Part shown: positions 142-1,024 of the stretch, one piece after another | Layout of the letters: each line of letters starts with the position of its first letter | Numbering within the stretch: position 1 is the stretch's first letter | Assembly (NCBI GenBank): GCA_031277475.1 | Contig: JAITMJ010000141.1 | Span: forward strand, 1-41,724 | Source of the DNA: Flavobacteriaceae bacterium | GTDB taxonomy: Bacteria; Bacteroidota; Bacteroidia; Flavobacteriales; Weeksellaceae | Length of the DNA stretch: 41,724 nucleotides | Reading direction: 5' to 3' | The notes under the pieces: model-generated | Database searches by the model: none | Told to the model about the DNA's origin: nothing | The model's input: only the letters and a program-made list of their open reading frames with translations | Translations under genes and position numbers: made by a program

Positions 142-732
142 TTAATTGACCTTTTCATATAACCTCTCTTTATCCGAAATCAAGATTCCGAAAAGGTGGT
201 CGGTTTCGTGCTGAAAAATTACGGCGGTAAATCCTTCCACGGTTTCGCTGTGTTTTTCGCCTGCCAAATCGAAATATTCTAATTCGATGGATTTGCTCCG
301 GTAAAAATATCCTCTGAAATCCGGAATTGACAAATCGCCTTCCGGTCCGAGATTCGTTTCTTCCGAATGCCACAAAATTACAGGATTGATGAAATATTCC
401 ACCGGTTCATCCGGTTTATCGAAACGCTGAACCAAAATAATATTCCTATTGATCCCGACTTGCGGCGCAGCAATCCCAACGCCGCCGTCCGTAGAAAGCA
501 GGGAGAGTTTCATTCGGTTGATTAAGATTTCTGTGTTTGGGTCGGTCGGGTTTGCATCTGCAGATTTCTCTAAAAGAATTTTGTGTTGTTCAGCATTTGT
601 AGTTTGCATTATCGGCAACGCCGTTTCAATATCGCCGCTATTGATGAGTTCGATTTCCGAAAGCGTATATTCCTGCCCGAAAATGGAGAAAAAAGCAAAA
701 GAAAATCCGATAAAAAGAATTTTTTTCGTCAT
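142..732 (-). CDS. Secreted peptide-deformylase-like protein, metal-ligand Cys replaced by Asp
   Basis: The 196-residue product has the three deformylase motifs: GVGIAAPQ (residues 84-91), EGDLS (131-135) and QHETDH (174-179). In peptide deformylases motif 2 is normally EGCLS and its Cys binds the catalytic metal; here residue 133 is Asp, while both His and the Glu of the HExxH motif remain. The reading frame stays open upstream, but the start at 732 is preferred because it yields a hydrophobic signal peptide ending near ...FSIFGQ; the longer frame would run into the neighbouring gene. The protein therefore probably works in the periplasm or at the surface, not on nascent chains in the cytosol. 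It lies one base after the upstream ABM-domain gene and is probably co-transcribed. Family membership is seen in the sequence; activity and substrate are unknown. Confidence 0.85.
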   Translation of the reverse strand: MTKKILFIGFSFAFFSIFGQEYTLSEIELINSGDIETALPIMQTTNAEQHKILLEKSADANPTDPNTEILINRMKLSLLSTDGGVGIAAPQVGINRNIILVQRFDKPDEPVEYFINPVILWHSEETNLGPEGDLSIPDFRGYFYRSKSIELEYFDLAGEKHSETVEGFTAVIFQHETDHLFGILISDKERLYEKVN

Positions 733-733
733 A

Positions 734-1024
734 TTAGAACATTTTAAATCCCTTGTAAACCAATGTTGTATCTTCGTGCATTCCGGCAGATTGGCTGCGA
801 AACTCCGCAAGATGTTCGGCGGAAGAATGTTTAAAAAGATGAGCCTCCGTTTCCCATAATTCCACAATAAACAGCACTCCTTTGTTATTTTTATCTTCAA
901 AAATATCATATTGCAGGCAGCCTTCTTCTTTTCGGGTGGTGTGTACGAGTTTTTTCAAAAGTTCAAGAGCGTCCGCTAAGTAATTTTCTTTGAACCGAAA
1001 AACAGCAACGACTTGTATGTTCAT
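734..1024 (-). CDS. Antibiotic biosynthesis monooxygenase (ABM) domain protein, putative quinol monooxygenase
   Basis: This 96-residue protein has the typical size and pattern of single-domain ABM proteins of the YgiN type: a VVAVFRFKENY-like first strand, a helix with ELLKKLVHTTRKEEGC, a central YDIFEDK strand, and a WETEAHLFKHSSAEHLAEF helix. Members are dimeric ferredoxin-like folds that act on quinols or other aromatic substrates, or that serve as haem-degrading enzymes; the sequence does not tell which applies here. It precedes the deformylase-like gene by one base on the same strand, so the two probably form an operon. It has no signal peptide, so it is cytoplasmic. Confidence 0.8.
   Translation of the reverse strand: MNIQVVAVFRFKENYLADALELLKKLVHTTRKEEGCLQYDIFEDKNNKGVLFIVELWETEAHLFKHSSAEHLAEFRSQSAGMHEDTTLVYKGFKMF

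Follow-up and report, generated by a model that had tools for sequence, protein, structure and literature searches.

The first gene of the 41,724-nt window (the whole stretch of DNA analysed here, contig JAITMJ010000141.1 of a Flavobacteriaceae bacterium from the Weeksellaceae) encodes an exported peptide deformylase (PDF) in which the cysteine that normally binds the catalytic metal is replaced by aspartate. This Asp-type PDF is a new variant within the known PDF family. From its conservation and predicted structure, we consider it probable that it is an active enzyme outside the cytoplasm, most likely in the periplasm, whose catalytic metal would be bound by His175, His179 and Asp133 instead of the usual His, His and Cys.

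An exported peptide deformylase with Asp in motif 2

The features of the gene and its upstream neighbour are listed in Table 1. The plus strand of positions 142 to 732 is full of stop codons. A longer open reading frame starting at 909 was rejected as the coding sequence, since it overlaps the upstream gene and relatives begin at the equivalent of 732. Motif 2 is encoded by GAA GGC GAT TTG TCA.

Table 1. Features of the Asp-type PDF gene and its upstream neighbour in the window
Feature	Position	Strand	Basis and remarks
Exported PDF coding sequence (Asp in motif 2; 196 aa)	145..732	-	ATG at 732, last codon at 145, stop codon 142-144; orthologues share the start ATG
Signal peptide, residues 1-19, MTKKILFIGFSFAFFSIFG	676..732	-	Hydrophobic core; conserved [AGS]-Gln junction; no lipobox; predicted cleavage before Gln20
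Motif 1, GVGIAAPQ, residues 84-91	460..483	-	Invariant within the Asp clade
Motif 2, EGDLS, residues 131-135	328..342	-	DNA pattern match 196-342 on the minus strand; alignment with E. coli Def
Asp133 codon GAT, in place of the metal-ligand Cys	334-336	-	Alignment with E. coli Def
Motif 3, HETDH, residues 175-179 (two His ligands, catalytic Glu176)	196..210	-	Alignment; conservation in the clade
ABM-domain monooxygenase gene, directly upstream of the PDF gene	734..1024	-	Pfam ABM, 59 bits; 1 base separates its end from the PDF ATG

The protein belongs to the PDF family, scoring 124.2 bits against the Pfam Pep_deformylase profile (PF01327; curated cut-off 22.8), and falls short of the NCBIfam equivalog for canonical PDFs (TIGR00079), with 99.0 bits against a cut-off of 103.95. 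It also departs from canonical PDFs by having no Cys ligand in motif 2 (EGCLS), as all 73 sequences of the Asp clade carry EGDLS. Motifs 1 (GxGxAAxQ) and 3 (HExxH) are present and, save for the first x of HExxH, invariant among relatives. In an alignment with E. coli Def, D133 falls on the metal-binding Cys (Cys90 in the usual numbering, codon 91 of the gene), H175 and H179 match the pair of His ligands, and Glu176 matches the catalytic Glu. The translation and this alignment bear out the GVGIAAPQ and HETDH motifs and the Asp at the Cys position that a first-pass annotation, made by a model from the DNA alone, had reported. An AlphaFold2 model built on a 67-row alignment (pLDDT 90.9) matched the type Ib PDF of Acinetobacter baumannii (6jf4_A) with a Z score of 23.3 and 1.3 Å over 145 residues, and the Fe-PDF of E. 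coli (1xen) with a Z score of 22.0. With Z scores of 21–23 to many solved PDFs, the protein is predicted to adopt the PDF fold.

The N-terminus, MTKKILFIGFSFAFFSIFG followed by QEY, has a Lys and then a 15-residue hydrophobic core with a mean hydropathy (KD) of 2.2, and the cleavage site of Ala, Gly or Ser followed by Gln is kept in nearly all 73 Asp-type sequences. Together, the core and the conserved site uphold the signal peptide of the original annotation. A segment of ~20 residues precedes the PDF domain.

The same genome encodes a separate canonical PDF with EGCLS, and a second PDF match was present in nearly all relatives in the 148 Weeksellaceae genomes examined. The Asp-type protein is without the C-terminal extension that E. 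coli Def and the canonical PDF of the same genome both have. Because of this missing extension and the separate canonical enzyme, the Asp-type PDF is unlikely to serve translation, which supports its earlier placement outside the usual role of PDFs. The signal peptide, the absence of a long C-terminal extension and the canonical copy elsewhere would all argue against a cytoplasmic, ribosome-linked action. A formyltransferase C-terminal domain was found in the same genome, and formylation is therefore probably in use.

Asp133 is fixed and the active site is under selection

To define the distribution of the substitution, motif 2 was read in every clear exported copy from 148 Weeksellaceae genomes, with genus names taken from named loci. 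EGDLS was found in 60/60 genomes of two lineages (73 distinct Asp-type sequences), with 55 copies from a group containing Chryseobacterium, Epilithonimonas, Elizabethkingia and the window, and 5 from one further genus. Exported copies of two other Weeksellaceae genera had EGCLS (17/17), and seven lipoprotein-like copies among the 148 genomes had DGCLS. A sequencing error or one-off mutation was rejected as the origin of the Asp, given its presence in all 60 genomes of two lineages. The first-pass annotation had named two observations that would count against it, namely Cys in related sequences with Asp as an error, and a signal peptide that is not used; close relatives carry both the Asp and the signal peptide.

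D133 was invariant in all 73 sequences, as were G84, G86, Q91, E131, G132, L134, S135, R145, H175, E176, D178 and H179. Also retained are the residues of a hydrophobic pocket (V85, F168, V171 and I172) that resembles the one in fMet PDFs. The median pairwise dN/dS was 0.064 across 135 non-saturated pairs of Asp-type sequences. The invariant catalytic residues and low dN/dS therefore indicate strong selection for an intact active site with Asp, and a pseudogene was rejected for the Asp clade on the same grounds. One Asp-type copy (L192, genome G133) is split in two by an in-frame TGA, which could reflect either gene decay or an error in the sequence. The gene is missing from some close relatives and is therefore dispensable.

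A scan of 395 Bacteroidota genomes with exact DNA patterns for EGD-L-S...HExDH matched the GAA form in eight genomes, all Weeksellaceae, and the GAG form in none. In viral contigs, the scan for the Asp-type pattern gave one chance frame match, which was not a PDF.

Exported relatives and the origin of the Asp

The original annotation had proposed comparing relatives to see whether the Asp and the signal peptide are conserved together. They are not, since Cys-type exported PDFs are widespread in Bacteroidota. Exported PDFs with a normal EGCLS or DGCLS motif occur across the phylum, for example in named loci of Flavivirga, Dysgonomonas and Sphingobacterium. Lipoprotein PDFs with a clear lipobox were found in Flavobacteriaceae, Saprospiraceae and Bacteroidales, and signal-peptidase-I type PDFs in Flavobacterium, Vaginella and Algoriella; both types keep the Cys. 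The exported PDF of a further locus (L147) has DGCLS. It follows from this wide spread of Cys-type exported PDFs that the export signal predates the Asp, which arose later in part of the family. A motif-2 pattern (EGC or DGC and LS, before HExxH) had no match in the PDFs of three loci from other Flavobacteriales (L213, L217 and L212), in which motif 2 may be unusual.

A careful tree, built with the Asp/Cys column masked, separated canonical PDFs from the exported ones with 100/100 support. Proteins with both an export signal and a PDF domain thus group apart from canonical PDFs, as an exported Bacteroidota family. The main Asp clade was recovered in the same tree (100/100), near the exported EGCLS forms, with the smaller Asp lineage outside it. 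A quick tree that kept the Asp column joined both Asp lineages, and an AU test did not reject a single Asp clade (p-AU 0.275). The Asp would accordingly have been gained either once or twice.

Among solved enzymes, class I type b PDFs (A. baumannii 6jf4 and Thermotoga maritima 1lme) share with the Asp-type protein the fold, motifs 1 and 3 and the EG-LS frame of motif 2. The Asp-type protein differs from them in the Asp for the metal Cys, the signal peptide, the extra N-terminal segment and a presumed extracytoplasmic location. E. coli Def (type Ia; 1xen) has equivalent His, His, Glu, Gln and Arg positions; compared with Def, the Asp-type protein shows 28% identity, has Asp for Cys90, is exported and has no long C-terminal extension, the part of E. 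coli Def that contacts the ribosome (PMC12690207). Its nearest relatives are the EGCLS/DGCLS exported and lipoprotein PDFs of Bacteroidota, which belong to the same exported family but keep the Cys ligand, many of them being lipoproteins with several cysteines. LpxC and the aspzincin peptidases are His-His-Asp zinc hydrolases; a metal site of two His and one Asp would be common to these enzymes and the Asp-type PDF, although the folds are unrelated.

No account of either exported PDFs or a PDF with an Asp ligand emerged from the open-access literature; subscription papers, including early E. coli Cys90 mutagenesis, were outside the scope of this search, and an engineered Cys90Asp PDF may already be described there. 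A 2025 survey of accessory PDFs refined motif II as EGCLS, and a text search of that survey found no 'Bacteroid-' and few secretion terms, none of them on exported PDFs.

The Asp-type PDF gene has no single neighbourhood

The ABM-domain gene and the PDF gene are also paired, with gaps of 1–4 bases, at 10 more loci from other genomes (L019, L020, L025–L028, L055, L057, L058 and L196). The two genes likely form an operon, the first encoding a cytoplasmic protein that resembles monooxygenases and the second an exported deformylase. Assignment of the ABM protein as a heme-degrading enzyme of the IsdG/MhuD kind was not supported, as its nearest solved structures are generic ABM proteins. In Chryseobacterium, a heme-uptake cluster with hmu-type genes, a periplasmic binding protein, an ABC ATPase, a methyltransferase, HemS and ChaN precedes the Asp-type PDF (L103–L115 and L117; PDF at about 6001 in each locus). 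A functional link to heme uptake was rejected and the arrangement taken as synteny, because the gaps are 125–550 bases and the cluster is there in Chryseobacterium only. In Epilithonimonas, the neighbour is an RND-like transporter.

Seven Flavobacteriaceae loci (L132, L136, L139, L148, L167, L171 and L174; PDF at about 6001 in each) have mreC-mreD-PBP2-RodA followed directly, on the same strand, by a lipoprotein PDF with EGCLS, such that an exported deformylase adjoins cell-elongation genes; MreC and MreD were named by eye from their sequences. Across the exported PDF family, the neighbours share no single context and do not indicate a single substrate.

The change to Asp removed the last thiol

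PDF is an essential and much-studied antibiotic target whose Cys-bound Fe2+ is known to be vulnerable to oxidation and nitric oxide. Cysteines were counted from 45 residues before motif 1 through to the protein end. Asp-type proteins had zero Cys in 71/73 cases, the nearest exported EGCLS forms had exactly one, the ligand itself (25/25), and other exported PDFs mostly had one to three. Thus, with the ligand as the sole Cys of the EGCLS sisters, the change to Asp took away the last thiol. Published work describes the sensitivity of this residue: H2O2 attack on the iron of E. coli PDF leads to oxidation of the Cys ligand (PMC10751367), and in Salmonella PDF, Cys90 is S-nitrosylated by NO and is needed for activity, with no rescue by C90S (PMC7683392). 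The loss of the last thiol agrees with these studies, an argument from fit. However, many exported lipoprotein PDFs keep the Cys, which therefore functions extracytoplasmically across most of the phylum. At most, oxidation explains why these Weeksellaceae lineages tolerate or favour the Asp.

Proposed function and alternatives

The first-pass annotation had offered three options for the protein, of which Asp as a metal ligand seems the best reading. Fixation of the Asp in all species examined suggests a thiol-free, working metal enzyme rebuilt for extracytoplasmic use. Glu176 would activate a metal-bound water, which would take the formyl group off N-formyl-Met peptides. Since exported and membrane proteins reportedly evade deformylation in the cytosol (PMC12690207), fMet is to be expected on cleaved signal peptides. 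The substrates would chiefly be the fMet ends of such peptides and of exported and membrane proteins, beyond the reach of the cytosolic PDF, and aminopeptidases would degrade the peptides after deformylation. The Cys-to-Asp change may have been kept because outside the reducing cytoplasm a thiolate would be oxidised along with its iron, whereas a carboxylate would not. Asp would probably also shift the metal preference to Zn2+ or a different redox-stable ion; zinc itself is a guess, by analogy, from the oxygen ligand and other His-His-Asp enzymes.

The same fold could serve a metal hydrolase that acts on something other than formyl-Met peptides, by hydrolysing another amide or formyl bond in the envelope, such as that of a small formylated molecule or of a peptide that carries no formyl group. 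The exported location, changed ligand and N-terminal segment would suit such an enzyme, as would the variable gene context and the lack of a known extracytoplasmic substrate. We consider it unlikely, as the three PDF motifs (ligand aside) and the hydrophobic pocket positions are kept and the Cys-type exported relatives resemble ordinary PDFs in sequence. Inactivity, another of the original options, is disfavoured by the invariant catalytic residues and the dN/dS of 0.06. A weak or inactive PDF-fold protein could still bind formylated peptides or metal, and loss of the canonical ligand is in line with this, since Salmonella PDF needs Cys90 and C90S fails (PMC7683392). We nevertheless find such a binder improbable: a dead enzyme is expected to lose some catalytic residues, but none of the 73 sequences, which are under strong purifying selection, departs from Glu176, Gln91 or the two His, and Asp often serves as a metal ligand whereas Ser does not.

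There is also a slim chance that the Asp is near-neutral, a chance substitution fixed where it works as well as Cys, with no role in oxidation or metal use. Its presence in only part of an exported family that mostly keeps the Cys would be explained in this way. The absence of reversion among 73 sequences in two lineages, the possibility of two separate gains and the coincidence with complete Cys loss all argue against such drift.

With an active exported deformylase as the preferred reading, a wider proposal can be made tentatively, as one possibility that we favour less than its enzymatic core. An undescribed system for envelope fMet deformylation may be widespread in Bacteroidota, with the Weeksellaceae enzyme rebuilt, possibly twice, as a thiol-free and oxidation-proof His-His-Asp form that uses another metal. 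A natural, fixed Cys-to-Asp swap would directly test why PDF as a rule relies on Cys and iron. With exported deformylases, removal of N-formyl-Met would also take place beyond the cytoplasm, a point of relevance to signal-peptide recycling and to the amounts of formyl peptides that bacteria release.
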